Both the position numbers and the translations under genes were made by a program. The notes beneath the pieces were generated by a model. It searched no databases, was not told where the DNA came from, and was given only the letters and a program-made list of their open reading frames with translations. Shown one piece after another: positions 2,919 through 17,665 of a stretch of 23,566 nt of DNA; position 1 is the stretch's first letter; each line of letters begins with the position of its first letter. This DNA is from a virus, in the IMG/VR virus record IMGVR_UViG_3300044632_001529, positions 1-23,566 of that record. The stretch is one strand, 5' to 3'.

Positions 2919-3332
2919 ATGAAAGACGTAGCGGGTATTTTAGTTAAATATCAAGATAGGTGTTTGCTTTGTAAAAGAGCTCCGGGTGAGCATTTGGAAG
3001 GGTATTGGTCAATTCCTTGTGGAGGGGTTAATCCTAAGGAAGATTTAAAAGATGCTGCGGTAAGAGAATTTAGGGAAGAAACTTATTTGGTTTTGAATCC
3101 CCAAGAAGTTTCTTATGTAACATCAATTCTTAATTCAAACAAGAAAAAGGTAATAACATCTATATTACATGTATTTTATACAAGGGCTTCAACAATAAAA
3201 AAACCTAATTTAGAAAAGGCAAAAGATGGGTTTGAACATACTGAATGCCGTTATTTTGGGTTAAGTGAGGTGGATAATTTAAAAATTACTCCAAAACTCA
3301 AAGAAATTATCAAAAAAGCCTTGGCAAATTAA
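2919..3332 (+). CDS. Nudix hydrolase
   Basis: 137 aa with a Nudix box around residues 36-60: GGVNPKED ... AAVREFREETYL. The acidic metal-binding glutamates (REFREE) are present; the usual Gly after EEx is Tyr here, a tolerated variation. Nudix enzymes hydrolyse nucleoside diphosphates linked to another moiety, and phage members commonly clean or recycle nucleotides or act on capped RNA. The substrate cannot be told from sequence. A non-coding region of 1.2 kb follows. Confidence 0.9.
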   Translation: MKDVAGILVKYQDRCLLCKRAPGEHLEGYWSIPCGGVNPKEDLKDAAVREFREETYLVLNPQEVSYVTSILNSNKKKVITSILHVFYTRASTIKKPNLEKAKDGFEHTECRYFGLSEVDNLKITPKLKEIIKKALAN

Positions 3333-3410
3333 AAAAAAAGTATTAGATTTGTATCACTTTTGAAATATTAAAGATATTTATATTTCACAAGAAAAAAACT
3401 CTAAAAAAGT

Positions 3411-3441
3411 TTGACACTTTGAAAAAAATGTCGTAAGTTTG
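3411..3441 (+). promoter_or_regulatory. Strong promoter, upstream copy
   Basis: TTGACA at 3411-3416, 17 nt, TAAGTTTG at 3434-3441, followed by TAAAA. Near-consensus Bacteroidetes vegetative promoter. The surrounding sequence ('AAAAATGTCGTAA..TTTGTAAAA') is repeated at the second promoter 92 nt downstream. Confidence 0.8.
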
Positions 3442-3502
3442 TAAAAGATTTGAGATAGGTAACGATTCAGATACAAGTCTCAAAAAAAATAAAACAAATT
3501 AC

Positions 3503-3533
3503 TTGACAAGAACAGAAAAATGTCGTAACTTTG
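3503..3533 (+). promoter_or_regulatory. Strong promoter for the ~1-kb RNA
   Basis: TTGACA at 3503-3508, 17 nt, TAACTTTG at 3526-3533. The predicted start is at about 3538-3540, just before an 8-bp hairpin (AAATCTCA/TGAGATTT). Two tandem near-consensus promoters with no ORF downstream argue for high-level synthesis of a non-coding RNA. Confidence 0.85.
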
Positions 3534-3537
3534 TAAA

Positions 3538-4529
3538 ACAAATCTCAAATGTGAGATTTAAAACGGGGAAACGTTCTTTGAAAATACCTAAATACCCCCT
3601 TTGAAGTATATAGGTAATATTAATTATCCGTTCAGTAGTTGATTATGAGACCTTCGGGTTGATTATGAGACATTTAATCTGATAAACGATAATGGGCCGT
3701 GTATGGTCCTTAAATAAACTACGAAAGTAGGATAAAGTGGTCTCCCCTGTGTTGAGGAGACTGCGGTTTGAAACCCCGTAAGGGGAATTGAACTCAAGTA
3801 CACAAGTGGGATATCATCAAACCTTTAGTACCGAGGATAACTTCGTAGGGAAAATGGTAGGGTGACTTGGGAAAGTAGATTCTCAAGTTGAGTTCGGAAG
3901 AACAATAAGAATAACCCATAGGAACTCTGTAAGAAATGTGACCATCCAGTTACACTATTGCGGGTCCCAATATAATAGAGGACTTAAAACCGAAAGGTAA
4001 GATAGAGAACGAGTGGTGTCGCTACTATCCCTAAGGAATACCTACCAAGGTATCTTTATGAAGTAATCTTGAAATATGGAGGTGGGGACACTTCACGGAG
4101 TAGTTTAGTATTCTGTCGCTCAAAAGGAGACGGAGCTTACGGTGGACCACTACTCTGACACATCTACTACACAAACCTAACATTATTACAAAATAACTAA
4201 GGAAAAGTGTCCATCAGGTTTAGGTGAAAGGTCACTACATAGTAATGAGACGTTCATTGCACAGAAAGACCCCAAGTCTAACTGTAGTTTTACGAAAAAC
4301 CTTTAGTCCCGCAAGGACGAACTGGGACGGCAGTCTCGGAAAGAGTTGAGTAAGAAGAGAGTAACTTAAACCTCAAGGAGTGGTAAACCTAAAAGACCGT
4401 GACTGAGAAATACTTCTCAAAAGGAAGTGGATACGAAGGGAAACAATAATCCTTCAAAAGGTTCTCACATAAAGCTATAATCTCAGGCTATATTAACTTA
4501 TCTGACCTGTCGTTCTGACGGGTTTTTTT
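3538..4529 (+). ncRNA. Giant structured RNA (~990 nt), class not identified
   Basis: No ORF of meaningful length lies on either strand, yet base composition changes sharply from the AT-rich genes and the stretch is full of hairpins with stable loops. Examples: ACC-UUCG-GGU; GGGCC/GGTCC; CTAC-GAAA-GTAG; GTCTCC/GGAGAC (6 bp); CCCC-GTAA-GGGG; TGTGAC/GTTACA; ACC-GAAA-GGT; GATACC/GGTATC; GTGA/TCAC; GTCC/GGAC; ACTTC/GAAGT. A long-range 8-bp helix pairs GAACTCAA (3790-3797) with TTGAGTTC (3888-3895), enclosing other hairpins. A 14-nt direct repeat (3638-3651 and 3658-3671) flanks the UUCG hairpin. CCTAAG and TATGG, the two strands of the 11-nt tetraloop receptor, occur about 45 nt apart near 4030-4080, although their flanks do not pair well. 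It begins at strong promoters and ends at an intrinsic terminator. By size, phage setting and tRNA company it resembles the GOLLD and ROOL groups of ornate RNAs, but I cannot align it to either. Confidence 0.8.
4505..4529 (+). terminator. Terminator of the giant RNA
   Basis: ACCTGTC/GACGGGT stem (7 bp, one G-U), 5-nt loop GTTCT, then seven T. It marks the 3' end of the ~1-kb RNA. Confidence 0.85.
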
Positions 4530-4552
4530 GTTTATAATAGATACTTAATGAT

Positions 4553-4777
4553 ATGTCAATATTAGAAAATTTAAAAGAAGTTTTACCAGAGTGGTCAAAA
4601 ATTTCAGTTAGAGAGTTACCTAACAAAATCGAATACGAAATTCATATTCAACCAACAATTACTGATGATGAACATTTTAAATTGATGGTTAATATAAAAC
4701 AGGCTTGTCAGGGAAAATTTTTAGAAAGATATACAAAAGAAATCGGAGAACATTTTTATATTTATACAAAAAAATAA
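4553..4777 (+). CDS. Small unknown protein, 74 aa
   Basis: ATG 23 nt after the giant-RNA terminator. A soluble 74-residue protein with alternating beta and alpha character (EYEIHIQPTITDDEHFKLMV) and a basic C-terminus. No motif recognised. It is separated from the next gene by 1 nt, so the two are probably cotranslated; no good promoter is visible directly upstream, so read-through of the terminator may feed it. Confidence 0.75.
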   Translation: MSILENLKEVLPEWSKISVRELPNKIEYEIHIQPTITDDEHFKLMVNIKQACQGKFLERYTKEIGEHFYIYTKK

Positions 4778-10318: not shown

Positions 10319-11047
10319 ATGAATATGAATTACGGAAAAGAGTTTAGAAAGTATGCTATGAGTGAGGGGATTTCCTCGTTGAATTTGGATAGATTTGAAA
10401 ATGCTTTAACACCTTATGTGTTAGAGGAAAGAGAATTAAGAGCGACTCAGATTGATATCTTCTCACGATTAATGAGAGAAAGAATTTTGTGGGTATCGGG
10501 AGCGGTTAACCAACATATGTCAGATATTGTTCAGGCTCAGTTGTTATTTTTGGACTCGGTTGAACAACGTGATATTACATTATACATTAACTCACCTGGT
10601 GGTTCGGTTCTTTGTGGACTAGGAATTGTTGATTTGATGAACTATATTAAGTCAGATGTTGCAACAACAAATATTGGAATGTGTGCGTCTATGGGGTCGG
10701 TCTTACTATCATCAGGTACCAAAGGTAAAAGGTCATCTCTAGTGTATTCAAAAGTAATGACACATCAGGTAAGTCACGGAACCGAAGGAAATGTTCAGGA
10801 CACAAGAATTAATCAAATGGAGGCTGAGAAATATAACTACATTTTGTTTAAGATGATTGCCGAGAATTGTGGTAAAACGGTTGAGGAAGTGTTGGAGGTT
10901 TCAAGAAGAGACAAATGGTTCAACTCGGATGAGGCAAAAGAGTTTGGTTTGATTGATGAGGTAATTAAGAGTGAGGGAACCAAAACAATTTCTGAGATGT
11001 TAGTAGGTTTTGATGACTACTACAACAAGGAAGTTTTTAATAGATAA
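10319..11047 (+). CDS. clpP: ClpP-type serine protease
   Basis: 242 aa. Catalytic Ser124 (GMCASMGS), His149 (KVMTHQVSHG) and Asp198 (RRDKWF) have the same spacing (25 and 49 residues) as Ser97, His122 and Asp171 of E. coli ClpP. YINSPGGS at about 89-96 and EFGLIDEVI further support the family. ClpP forms a barrel that degrades proteins, usually with an AAA+ unfoldase; phage ClpP-like enzymes can also serve as prohead maturation proteases. No scaffold, portal or capsid gene is adjacent, so the role is open. The N-terminus is about 25 residues longer than mature host ClpP. ATG 10325 is an alternative start. An aberrant tRNA follows 8 nt downstream. Confidence 0.93.
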   Translation: MNMNYGKEFRKYAMSEGISSLNLDRFENALTPYVLEERELRATQIDIFSRLMRERILWVSGAVNQHMSDIVQAQLLFLDSVEQRDITLYINSPGGSVLCGLGIVDLMNYIKSDVATTNIGMCASMGSVLLSSGTKGKRSSLVYSKVMTHQVSHGTEGNVQDTRINQMEAEKYNYILFKMIAENCGKTVEEVLEVSRRDKWFNSDEAKEFGLIDEVIKSEGTKTISEMLVGFDDYYNKEVFNR

Positions 11048-11439: not shown

Positions 11440-12012
11440 ATGTATAAATTAAATCATGATTCATTAGAGTTTGTTAAGGTAAACAAATTTAAATTCTTTT
11501 CAAAGATTGGAGTTGTAACAATTACAATGGCTATCCTATCATCACTATTCACCTTTTTTTGGACTAAATCTCATATCGTAGAGACGATGACTGAGTATGA
11601 AAAAGTATTGTTGGTAGAAGAAGTTAACAAATTCTCGGAAGACAAGATGGTTGAAAAAATCAAAGAACTTGGATTTAAATATCCACACGTTGTTATGGCT
11701 CAAGCAATCCTTGAGACTGGTAATTTTAAGAGTCCTGTTTTCCAAGAGAACCATAACTTATTTGGAATGAAAGAAGCCACAAGCCGATTGAATTTGGCAA
11801 AAGGAACCCAAAATAATCACGCATCATATGCAAATTGGGAAGATAGTATTTTGGATTATGCATTGTGGTGTTCAACATACGCAAACAAAGCACAATCAGA
11901 GGACGAGTATTTCCAAATCTTAAATAGTCTTGGTTACGCTGAGGACGGGACATACGAAATGAAACTAAGAGAAATTATTAATAAGTACGATTTAAAGAAT
12001 AAGTTTAGTTGA
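11440..12012 (+). CDS. Membrane-anchored glucosaminidase (endolysin candidate)
   Basis: 190 aa. A single N-terminal transmembrane or signal-anchor segment (residues ~23-41, IGVVTITMAILSSLFTFFW) follows a basic tip. The catalytic domain (~75-185) matches the FlgJ-type glucosaminidase family: VVMAQAILETGNF (catalytic E92), NHNLFGMKEA, and ASYANWEDSILDYALW. It should hydrolyse N-acetylglucosaminyl bonds in peptidoglycan from the periplasmic side. The anchor suggests Sec-dependent delivery without a classical holin. This is the likeliest lysis enzyme in the window. Confidence 0.9.
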   Translation: MYKLNHDSLEFVKVNKFKFFSKIGVVTITMAILSSLFTFFWTKSHIVETMTEYEKVLLVEEVNKFSEDKMVEKIKELGFKYPHVVMAQAILETGNFKSPVFQENHNLFGMKEATSRLNLAKGTQNNHASYANWEDSILDYALWCSTYANKAQSEDEYFQILNSLGYAEDGTYEMKLREIINKYDLKNKFS

Positions 12013-13133: not shown

Positions 13134-13164
13134 TTGACATAACTGAAAAATTATTGTAACTTTG
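13134..13164 (+). promoter_or_regulatory. Strong promoter ahead of the first tRNA array
   Basis: TTGACA at 13134-13139, 17 nt, TAACTTTG at 13157-13164. Near-identical to the giant-RNA promoter. Confidence 0.85.
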
Positions 13165-13333: not shown

Positions 13334-13368
13334 ACCCTGGACTACAAAAAAGTTCAGGGTTTTTTTTT
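13334..13368 (+). terminator. Terminator between 37-aa ORF and tRNA array
   Basis: ACCCTGGACT/AGTTCAGGGT (10 bp, one G-U), 7-nt loop, then a run of nine T. The tRNAs begin 25 nt later, so they need read-through or an unseen promoter. Confidence 0.85.
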
Positions 13369-13392
13369 GGTTCTTTGACATATTGGAAAAAT

Positions 13393-13467
13393 GACTTCGT
13401 AGCTCAGCAGGTTTAGAGCATCGCACTTTTAATGCGAGGGTCGTGGGTTCGAGTCCCACCGGGGTCA
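13393..13467 (+). tRNA. tRNA-Lys(UUU)
   Basis: Acceptor GACTTCG/CGGGGTC, D arm GCTC/GAGC, anticodon stem TCGCA/TGCGA with loop CTTTTAA, T arm GTGGG/CCCAC, A73 followed by C. Confidence 0.95.
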
Positions 13468-13477
13468 CTTTTTATAC

Positions 13478-13560
13478 ACGTCAGTGGCAGAATGGTTATG
13501 CAACGGTCTCCAAAACCGTGAACACTATGTTCTATGAGGGTTCGAGTCCTTCCTGGCGTG
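13478..13560 (+). tRNA. tRNA-Trp(CCA) with long variable arm
   Basis: Acceptor ACGTCAG/CTGGCGT, anticodon stem ACGGT/ACCGT with loop CTCCAAA (anticodon CCA), T arm GAGGG/CCTTC. A1-U72 and G73 are the usual tRNA-Trp determinants. Unusually, the variable region is 16 nt with a GAAC/GTTC hairpin, as in class II (Leu/Ser/Tyr) tRNAs. Confidence 0.85.
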
Positions 13561-13566
13561 CAACAA

Positions 13567-13637
13567 GCCTCTATAGTTAAAAGGTATAACGATTGATTTG
13601 TAATCAATTGTTCTTGGTTCGATTCCGAGTAGAGGCT
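13567..13637 (+). tRNA. tRNA-Thr(UGU)
   Basis: Acceptor GCCTCTA/TAGAGGC, anticodon stem ATTGA/TCAAT with loop TTTGTAA, T arm CTTGG/CCGAG, T73 then C. Confidence 0.93.
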
Positions 13638-13644
13638 CTAACAT

Positions 13645-13719
13645 TCTCACGTAGCTCAGTTGGTTTAGAGCATTTGTCTGATACACAAAAGGTCGTTGGT
13701 TCGATTCCAACCGTGAGAA
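13645..13719 (+). tRNA. tRNA-Ile(GAU)
   Basis: Acceptor TCTCACG/CGTGAGA, D arm GCTC/GAGC, anticodon stem TTTGT/ACAAA with loop CTGATAC, T arm GTTGG/CCAAC, A73 then C. Confidence 0.93.
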
Positions 13720-13726
13720 CTTAATT

Positions 13727-13779
13727 CGGGATGTAGCTCAGTTGGCTTAGAGTACTTGGTTTGAGTCCAGTTATCCCGA
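13727..13779 (+). pseudogene. Mini-tRNA-Pro lacking the anticodon arm
   Basis: Acceptor CGGGATG/TATCCCG, complete D arm (GCTC/GAGT), then straight into a T arm (CTTGG/CCAGT, loop TTTGAGT), A73 then C. The anticodon arm and variable loop (about 22 nt) are absent. C1-G72 with A73 is the bacterial tRNA-Pro signature. TTGG occurs both in a Pro anticodon loop and at the T stem, so a microhomology deletion explains the junction. It cannot decode; it is a remnant or a tRNA-like RNA. Confidence 0.75.
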
Positions 13780-13880
13780 CTATAATGGGTAGAACCCGTG
13801 AAAAATGGGTGGAACTCAAGAAAAATGGGAGTAAAACCACCTTTCACAAGAAAAATGGGTGGAGAATATTTTTCATTATA
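13780..13880 (+). repeat. AAAAATGGG direct repeats between tRNAs
   Basis: AAAAATGGG occurs at 13801, 13821 and 13851, with a shorter AATGGGT at 13784. Two copies extend to a 13-nt repeat CAAGAAAAATGGG (13817 and 13847). A CCACC at 13837 can pair with GGTGG of the repeats. No ORF; purpose unknown. Confidence 0.7.
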
Positions 13881-13881
13881 T

Positions 13882-13957
13882 GGGGTGATAGCGCAGGTGG
13901 TCAGTTCGCGTCGGTCTGAAAAACCGAAGATGTGTGGTTCAACTCCCACTCACCCCA
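13882..13957 (+). tRNA. tRNA-Phe(GAA)
   Basis: Acceptor GGGGTGA/TCACCCC, anticodon stem TCGGT/ACCGA with loop CTGAAAA, A73 then C. The T stem GTG(T)GG/CCCAC carries one bulged base at the same position as in the tRNA at 11056. Confidence 0.88.
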
Positions 13958-14113
13958 CGAGGTCCTGAATTAACAGGGCAACCCCCACCTCCGATATGGC
14001 AGTCGGTCCGTTAATCCGACGAAGATGGGGTTTTAAAAAGTGTCTCGGTACGCTCTGACGAAAGTCAACGACGAGGTCTCGGTGGACAGAAGGCCTCTGA
14101 TTCCACCCAAACT
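13958..14113 (+). ncRNA. Structured spacer with Asn-like anticodon arm
   Basis: AACCCC (13980-13985) pairs with GGGGTT (14027-14032), enclosing GTCGG/CCGAC (14002-14006/14016-14020) whose loop contains CCGTTAA, like an Asn (GUU) anticodon loop with C33. No D arm or acceptor can be completed, so it resembles a decayed tRNA-Asn or a small RNA ending in TTTT. The following part holds TGAC-GAAA-GTCA (14056-14067), TGTC/GACA and a repeated GTCTCGG. Confidence 0.45.
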
Positions 14114-14186
14114 GCGGGTGTCGTATAACGGCTCATTATGTCACTCTTCCAAAGTGAAGACGGGGTTTCGACTACCCCCACCCGCT
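14114..14186 (+). tRNA. tRNA-Gly(UCC)
   Basis: Acceptor GCGGGTG/CACCCGC, anticodon stem TCACT/AGTGA with loop CTTCCAA, T arm GGGGT/ACCCC (a T-A rather than G-C pair next to the loop), T73 then C. Confidence 0.92.
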
Positions 14187-14192
14187 CTTTTT

Positions 14193-14265
14193 GGCTCCAT
14201 GGTTGAATGGCTACAATGCCGGCTTGTCACGCCGTGTGGTACGGGTTCGAATCCCGTTGGAGCCG
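14193..14265 (+). tRNA. tRNA-Asp(GUC)
   Basis: Acceptor GGCTCCA/TGGAGCC, anticodon stem CCGGC/GCCG with loop TTGTCAC, T arm ACGGG/CCCGT, G73. The only tRNA here followed by a full CCA (14266-14268). Confidence 0.92.
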
Positions 14266-14274
14266 CCAAAGAGG

Positions 14275-14322
14275 AGTAACTTGCGTAGGTGCCTCAGGGG
14301 ACTGCAGCCCCACTACGCTCCA
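14275..14322 (+). ncRNA. Compact hairpin RNA between tRNA-Asp and tRNA-Gln
   Basis: GCGTAG (14283-14288) pairs with CTACGC (14313-14318). An inner GGGG/CCCC stem closes a 7-nt loop ACTGCAG, which reads like an Ala (UGC) anticodon loop with C33. Not a full tRNA. Confidence 0.4.
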
Positions 14323-14325
14323 TAT

Positions 14326-14396
14326 TGTCCCTTCATCTAATGGCAGGATATCAGATTTTGATTCTGAGTATGTTGGTTCGAATCCATCAGGGACAA
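14326..14396 (+). tRNA. tRNA-Gln(UUG)
   Basis: Acceptor TGTCCCT/AGGGACA, anticodon stem TCAGA/TCTGA with loop TTTTGAT, T arm GTTGG/CCATC (one mismatch), A73 then C. Confidence 0.92.
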
Positions 14397-14403
14397 CTTT
14401 TTT

Positions 14404-16081: not shown

Positions 16082-17665
16082 ATGAGCATGAGAACAATCC
16101 TATTTTTCCTATTATTAATTCCCAATATTGTCCTTTCACAATGTGTTGGGGTCCAATCTTTTACATTAACTCCATCACCTACTAATGGGACTTACGAACC
16201 TGGAACTGTTGTAACTATGTGTTACACAATGAACGGTTGGAATGGAACTAACTTCGGGTCTAATTGGATTGAAGGGTTCGGATTAACTTTGGGACCGGGA
16301 TGGGTATCACATAGTCCTATTTCAGGACCTGATGATTGTGGAGGTGCGGTACTACCTCAACAATGGTTATGGTCTGAAAGTGTTACAAATAATGCAGGAA
16401 CATTAACTGTTGGACCGGGGTATTTCTATGAGGGACCTCAAGGGACTATTGATGGGAACCCTGGTAATGATTGGGGGGATTTTGGTCTTGATTGTTTATG
16501 GTCTTTTTGTATTCAATTACAAGTTACCGATGAATGTGACCCTTTATCTTTATTGATAGAAGTCACACCATACGCTGACGGAACTATGGGAAGTTGGGGA
16601 ACCGAATCTTGTTTTGATGCTCCGTTCCAAGTTTTCAATGGGACTGTTCTTGGAGGAGATGTGGTGACCTCACCCATTGATGTTCCAATGGATACGGTAT
16701 GTGTTGGACTTGCTGATACATACTCAGTCGTAAACACTGTTGGTTCAACATATGATTGGACTATTTCTGGTGGAGGTACTATGACTGAAAACGGAACAAA
16801 TACCATTGATGTTGAATGGGGTGGAGTACCAGGTGATTATGTAATATCGGTACAAGAGACAACTGTTGATGGATGTATTGGTGATATTATTGATACAACA
16901 ATAACTGTCGCGGATACTTTAATTACCTTTGGTCAAGACAATATTGGTATCTGTTTGGAAGAGACCGTTCAACTATCTGCAAGTCCTTCAGGAGGATTTT
17001 GGAATGGGGAAAATTTGGTTGGAAATGTTTTTACAGGATTTAATTCAGGTACATATCACCCATCATATTTTGTTAACATACATGGATGTCCTGTTGTGGA
17101 TTCCGTTGAGATTTATGTGAGACCGAAGTTTGAAGCTCCTGAAATATTTGCTCAATCAAACTTCATTGATTTTTGTACTGACCCTTATAACCATACTTAT
17201 TTGGCTCCTGATAGTGTTGGTATTGAATATACTTGGCATGTTGATGGTGTTTTACAACCTGATACTGACTTTGAATTAAATGTTCTTTGGCCTGACACTA
17301 CTATGGACCATATCATTACAGTCTATGGGACTGATACTTTGGGATGTGAGAGTGAGTTAAATGCTATTACCATTAGAACAAACACTTGTCATAGGTTATA
17401 TGTTCCAAATTCATTCACACCAAATAATGACGGGTTTAATGACGTATTTAAAATTGCTGGTATGTCAGTCTATGAACCTAATATGAAAATTTTTAATAGA
17501 GATGGTATGATGGTTTATAATATTAAATCATTAAGTCAAACTTGGAATGGTGATGATGGTAGTGGATACTATTGTCAGACAGGTGTTTATAATTGGATAA
17601 TGACATACAGAGACGATAGGGGAATTGGTCATGTAGAAAGAGGTCAAGTTATTTTGATTCGTTAA
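16082..17665 (+). CDS. Secreted T9SS-type protein with CHU_C sorting domain
   Basis: 527 aa (start MSMRTIL or ATG 16088). Residues 3-20 are a Sec signal peptide (RTILFFLLLIPNIVLS). A Cys-, Gly- and Trp-rich beta domain (~21-190) is followed by PKD/Ig-like modules (~205-350, e.g. STYDWTISGGGTMTENG) and another beta module. The C-terminal ~85 residues are a typical gliding-motility-associated / CHU_C (T9SS type B) domain: VPNSFTPNNDGFNDVFKI, MKIFNRDGMMVYN, WNGDDGSGYYCQTGVYNWIMTY, ending RGQVILIR. Such proteins are exported by the type IX secretion system and placed on the cell surface or released. It is flanked by tRNAs on both sides. Possible roles are blocking superinfection or altering adhesion; it could also be a gene taken from a host. 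Confidence 0.9.
   Translation: MSMRTILFFLLLIPNIVLSQCVGVQSFTLTPSPTNGTYEPGTVVTMCYTMNGWNGTNFGSNWIEGFGLTLGPGWVSHSPISGPDDCGGAVLPQQWLWSESVTNNAGTLTVGPGYFYEGPQGTIDGNPGNDWGDFGLDCLWSFCIQLQVTDECDPLSLLIEVTPYADGTMGSWGTESCFDAPFQVFNGTVLGGDVVTSPIDVPMDTVCVGLADTYSVVNTVGSTYDWTISGGGTMTENGTNTIDVEWGGVPGDYVISVQETTVDGCIGDIIDTTITVADTLITFGQDNIGICLEETVQLSASPSGGFWNGENLVGNVFTGFNSGTYHPSYFVNIHGCPVVDSVEIYVRPKFEAPEIFAQSNFIDFCTDPYNHTYLAPDSVGIEYTWHVDGVLQPDTDFELNVLWPDTTMDHIITVYGTDTLGCESELNAITIRTNTCHRLYVPNSFTPNNDGFNDVFKIAGMSVYEPNMKIFNRDGMMVYNIKSLSQTWNGDDGSGYYCQTGVYNWIMTYRDDRGIGHVERGQVILIR

Follow-up and report, generated by a model that had tools for sequence, protein, structure and literature searches.

How does a phage make, and for what does it keep, about a kilobase of untranslated RNA? 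The question is raised by a locus near the left end of the window (the whole stretch of DNA analysed, a 23,566-base virus fragment that makes up its entire record). A sequence-only reading had described two strong promoters, some 1 kb without open reading frames, more than ten hairpins and a terminator, and had proposed a large RNA of the GOLLD or ROOL type.

A GOLLD RNA in a Bacteroidota phage

Examination of positions 3300-4600 against Rfam, the check proposed in that reading, revealed GOLLD (RF02032) as the sole family matched. The match lies at 4096-4489 on the plus strand, scores 317.6 bits, the gathering score being 150 (E = 1.5e-90), and spans the entire model (1-416 of 416). No other family, the ROOL model included, was matched in this interval up to E = 1, and the RNA at 3540-4490 is therefore a GOLLD; of the two large-RNA groups proposed, the end-to-end match selects this one. 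The coding content agrees with the earlier description, since the plus strand of 3332-4553 holds no open reading frame of at least 50 amino acids; the minus strand of the same region has a single chance frame of 50 amino acids. The abundance of hairpins was also borne out: the minimum free energy of 3549-4529 is -267.5 kcal/mol (z = -2.9), and comparative folding of the 5' domain by itself yields 20 helices. As known for GOLLD, the RNA is phage-borne and accompanied by tRNA genes, 17 in the window according to Rfam and 19 according to ARAGORN. Support for a Bacteroidota host comes from a 527-amino acid phage protein encoded at 16082-17665 (+), in which a CHU_C type IX secretion sorting domain was recognised (8e-17). 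Near the tRNA genes are also found a ClpP-like protease related to phage head maturation protease families (10319-11047) and an endolysin-type glucosaminidase (11440-12012).

The Rfam model covers the 3' domain only and leaves the upstream half of the RNA to be described by comparison. A pattern scan of viral contigs combined with blastn within the loci allowed us to recover about 64 relatives that resemble 3548-4096 in their 5' half as well; about 30 of the 117 first-scan matches were dropped, being near-identical sequences with no GOLLD similarity that were taken as coding. A second scan with the 5'-domain pattern AAATAAACNNNGAAANNNGGATAAAGTG brought the total to 171 anchored loci, 127 of them nonredundant and with 300 nt upstream. 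The same RNA is present in two metagenomic phages, LR745206 and LR756502 (635 and 642 kb). The 5'-domain pattern had no match in cellular genome contigs, and no GOLLD was found in plasmids; RF02032 matched none of 148 Bacteroidota genomes, a result that does not imply absence since the controls likewise gave none.

An alignment of 60 distinct viral relatives (A1) delimits the 5' domain at 3688-4095 (+), which by comparison with the solved GOLLD would be the cap domain, and folds into 20 helices with 101 pairs, 81 of which show compensatory changes on both sides. Paired cells amount to 97.2%, against 78.0% in shuffled alignments and 37-42% when the partners are slid, and the covariation score is 0.605 against 0.222 in shuffles; the structure was derived from A1 itself, which favours the fit somewhat, and the margin is very large. 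The covariation expected of homologs by the sequence-only reading is thus very strong. The same reading had noted an 8-bp long-range helix around some 90 nt. Such a helix exists at 3699-3704/3798-3803, encloses 93 nt and is 100% paired across the 60 sequences with two compensating pairs, but only six of its pairs are supported. In one related locus (L080:4432-4999), GOLLD lacks about 230 nt at the domain junction, with most of P17 and the linker gone, by deletion or assembly error.

Promoters and leader

Two promoters precede the RNA on the plus strand: P1 at 3411-3441 (TTGACA at 3411-3416, -7 element TAAGTTTG at 3434-3441) and P2 at 3503-3533 (TTGACA at 3503-3508, -7 element TAACTTTG at 3526-3533), from which transcription is expected to start near 3540. 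A 36-nt block, 81% alike between the two, begins at 3411 and again at 3503, so that both the pair and the 92-nt spacing reported earlier are exact. Their type, implicitly sigma-70 in the earlier reading, had been misjudged: both fail an E. coli sigma-70 scan and read TTGACA-N17-TAnnTTTG, in the manner of the Bacteroidota consensus, TAnnTTTG with TTTG near -33 (PMC7366714). P2 is the conserved one of the pair: the arrangement TTG-N17-22-TAnnTTTG precedes GOLLD in 103 of the 127 relatives.

Downstream of P2 come a small hairpin, AAATCTCA-AATG-TGAGATTT (3540-3559, +), at the place that boxB occupies in rRNA leaders, and then GTTCTTTGAAAATA. The sequence of the hairpin varies among relatives while its stem is preserved (ATCGGA/TCCGAT, CAGGA/TCCTG, CTTGGT/ACCAAG). 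On its 3' side lies GTTCTTTGAAAA (3573-3584), which contains a boxA-like element, GTTCTTTGA (3573-3581, +), common to GOLLD and rRNA leaders. The motif GTTCTTT[AG]A occurs in 116 of the 127 nonredundant GOLLD leaders, 37-147 nt from the anchor, against about 0.8 in shuffles; six more have GTTCTTT (122/127), and a further three carry GTTCTTAGAA. The element stands between the -7 element of P2 and the conserved GOLLD structure, which begins at about 3688. The intervening segment (3582-3687, +), with a TTCG hairpin, is not conserved among relatives. The 14-nt direct repeat singled out by the sequence-only reading, GTTGATTATGAGAC, is present there at 3638-3651 and 3658-3671; it was misweighted, and was rejected as a functional element since relatives do not conserve it. 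Some leaders take a longer, alternative form, in which internal-loop sequences are repeated between promoter and boxA (AGGTGATGAAAGATACTCGGT in L123, L136, L184 and L188; AGGTTGTAAAGATTCCT in L221, L226 and L096).

Because the leader element looked like boxA, Bacteroidota rRNA leaders were collected for comparison, by means of a 16S signature and independently of the boxA motif. Exact copies of GTTCTTTGA were found in 29 of 104 leaders (0.17 in shuffles) and a boxA-like match in 60, at a median of 127 nt upstream of 16S; the other 44 have no boxA by the search pattern within 400 nt. A host variant reads GTTCATTGA, and in Flavobacteriaceae most leaders either carry GTTCATT or give no match. The core columns of this comparison were fixed by the search pattern; independent of it are the choice between G and A, which is alike in the two groups (82/17% in GOLLD and 77/22% in rRNA leaders), the 3' flank, A-rich in both, and a de novo count in which GTTCTTTGA is the top 9-mer (82/118 GOLLD leaders, 26/93 Bacteroidota rRNA leaders). 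In addition, six 16-mers are identical between GOLLD and rRNA leaders, including the window's own ACGTTCTTTGAAAATA (3571-3586). The element therefore has the sequence found in rRNA leaders of the host group.

In E. coli, the rRNA antitermination complex depends on boxA, which also suffices for it; the complex is Rho-resistant and may assist the folding of rRNA; in rRNA leaders, a hairpin precedes boxA and both follow promoter P2. The GOLLD leader resembles the boxB-boxA-boxC leader of rrn operons (PMC10250234, PMC6614801, PMC5725501) in its tandem promoters, small hairpin and GTTCTTTGAAA, followed by a long structured RNA. It differs from it in serving a phage noncoding RNA, in that boxC was not identified, and in that its boxA is a candidate predicted from sequence.

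The boxA-like element at other RNAs

The only other plus-strand copy in the window, GTTCTTTGA(CATATT) at 13370-13378, lies 23 nt 5' of tRNA-Lys, the first gene of an array whose first part (13393-14397, +; Rfam and ARAGORN searches) encodes tRNAs for Lys, Trp, Thr, Ile, Phe, Gly, Asp and Gln. A Bacteroidota-type promoter, TTGACA...TAACTTTG, stands upstream at 13134-13164 (+). With the boxA-like element shared in this way, GOLLD is probably co-expressed with other stable RNAs. Within 13335-13378, a terminator-like hairpin with T9 ends immediately 5' of this boxA, and transcription from the promoter at 13134 may thus read through to the array.

In related phages the element lies 14-15 nt 5' of the tmRNA in 10 of 27 cases, several of these tmRNAs being confirmed by Rfam, and precedes 14 of 149 tRNA clusters, against a background of 2.2%. 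It also precedes an RNA of about 125-165 nt that adjoins GOLLD. Among promoter-plus-boxA sites, 101 belong to GOLLD, 8 to tmRNA, 7 to tRNA and 5 to the 125-165-nt RNA, while 6 are near the start of an open reading frame and 1 is inside an open frame; 44 more are unclassified, about 14 of which begin like tmRNA when judged by eye. Since these loci were gathered with a pattern and are related by descent, the counts are not independent events, and the best independent evidence is the recurrence of the element at unrelated RNAs. As a control, tmRNA genes of 30 Bacteroidota genomes were examined, and the exact element was found within 120 nt in 3.

Several tmRNA genes of GOLLD phages have boxA 14-15 nt upstream; such genes were seen at L011:861-1249, L140:5916-6334, L096:8044-8416, L224:2478-2878, L025:6034-6424 and L149:787-1201, and in L153 and L087. 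The 125-165-nt RNA, found just upstream of GOLLD at L215:3230-3410 (+) and L089:6490-6620 (+), in L087 (-) and in L055, L124, L164, L181 and L189, has its own promoter, hairpin and boxA and a covarying end helix. It holds GUGAGGAAAGUGACUACGG, which recalls P4 of RNase P RNA and its surroundings; an identity as RNase P was set aside, as the copy in L215 matched no Rfam family at E values up to 10.

This distribution bears on what the element does. It could be a structural part of GOLLD, pairing with a conserved loop and without any role in antitermination; the loop UUCAAAAG of P17 is indeed conserved in GOLLD and able to pair with CUUUGAA with one bulge. This is improbable, as the element also precedes tmRNAs, tRNAs and host 16S rRNA, all of which lack that loop, and as GOLLD RNAs of other clades fit the 3' model and lack the element. 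We consider it just as doubtful that the element is a mere feature of early transcripts after strong Bacteroidota promoters, connected for example with promoter escape. Its frequent position 10-60 nt past the -7 element fits such a role, but among the 163 other promoters of this type that these phages have, it follows only 18, most of which lead stable RNAs (before GOLLD, 64/99), and in rRNA leaders its median position is 127 nt upstream of 16S. That the copies of boxA serve chiefly as decoys, taking NusB-S10 from host rRNA operons and shutting down ribosome synthesis, would suit the several copies per phage on stable RNAs and is very improbable, since their position at the start of each RNA is explicable without host shut-off.

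The element is absent from GOLLD RNAs with other 5' domains (L004, L010, L036, L051, L064 and others) and from the GOLLD of an Acinetobacter phage, and is thus a trait of the Bacteroidota-phage clade rather than of GOLLD at large.

Proposed production by rRNA-type antitermination and possible assembly

A kilobase of untranslated RNA shares the problem of rRNA, and borrowing of the host's solution by the phage is the simplest interpretation. We thus favour, with a probability of about three in four, a GOLLD cage RNA of a Bacteroidota phage that is made by rRNA-type antitermination, in which the action of boxA and the cage are the conjectural parts. Host RNA polymerase would initiate at the tandem pair of host-type promoters; as the leader emerged, it would display the small hairpin and boxA, to which host NusB-S10 would bind as on rRNA; and the polymerase would become an antitermination complex, Rho-resistant over about 1 kb of untranslated RNA, which may also aid folding. 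The RNA would then fold into its 5' and 3' domains, terminate at 4504-4531 and, if it behaves like the solved GOLLD, assemble into a 14-copy cage. It would probably be expressed alongside the other stable RNAs of the phage and support translation late in infection, a role suggested by the company of tRNAs and tmRNA. Production in large amounts, as supposed by the sequence-only reading, is plausible given the two promoters and the boxA-like antitermination element. Whether there is a wider stable-RNA regulon of Bacteroidota phages, in which GOLLD, tmRNA, tRNA arrays and the 125-165-nt RNA start with the host rRNA boxA and are made like rRNA, seems to us an even bet.

The predicted intrinsic terminator (4504-4524 plus a T run to 4531, +) agrees with the terminator of the earlier reading. 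Chance alone would give one site of this kind in the region, but this one lies 15 nt past the end of GOLLD, and a T5 run occurs within 70 nt of the GOLLD end in 52 of 75 relatives. The 3' domain (4096-4489) contains a short A-rich linker (4159-4203, +) at the site of the cage's disordered loop. In the alignment this linker holds no tRNA; none of the 75 relatives has a tRNA inside GOLLD, and 16 have one 7-17 nt past its end.

GOLLD is one of the few known RNA-only cages. The solved GOLLD (env-38, cryo-EM) is a 14-mer in which 5' domains form the cap and 3' domains the ring, joined through the self-kissing loops L21a and L21b (PMC12286853). By our own mapping of its residues 656-657 to Rfam positions of about 238-239, the corresponding loops of the window are CCCGCAAGG and CGGCA. 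Their centres are kept as GC or CG in relatives, that of L21a being self-complementary in 34 of them (GC in 33, CG in L119), which is compatible with a cage and no proof of one. The L20-J13/15 kissing contact was sought in the window's GOLLD and not located; pairing of L20 with 4003-4011, then with 4079-4091, was rejected as this bridge because covariation was inconsistent.

GOLLD itself is already known, and one Lactobacillus brevis prophage was reported to produce phage without it; what is added here is the rRNA-type leader with boxA, by which the RNA departs from described GOLLD. No earlier mention of boxA or antitermination at GOLLD was found in a literature search that left most subscription journals outside, so that a prior report is possible. 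The conserved leader suggests how phages could make long untranslated RNA in quantity, and links GOLLD with the tRNAs and tmRNA of phages and, through them, with translation. If this holds, boxA antitermination would reach beyond rRNA and lambda-type operons to include noncoding RNAs of phages.

ROOL RNA and the ICP1 RNA of about 800 nt (PMC7567579) are likewise large noncoding RNAs and often phage-borne; ROOL differs in having no match here, and the ICP1 RNA is likened by description alone. With env-38 (PMC12286853) the window's GOLLD shares a complete 3' domain, a separate 5' domain, phage tRNAs nearby and self-complementary L21a/L21b. It differs in its short linker with no tRNA inside and in the 5' domain, which is that of the Bacteroidota-phage clade (by eye also that of an Acinetobacter phage). 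One phage contig bearing a GOLLD of another 5' type also carries a Pistol ribozyme (L010:837-912, -).
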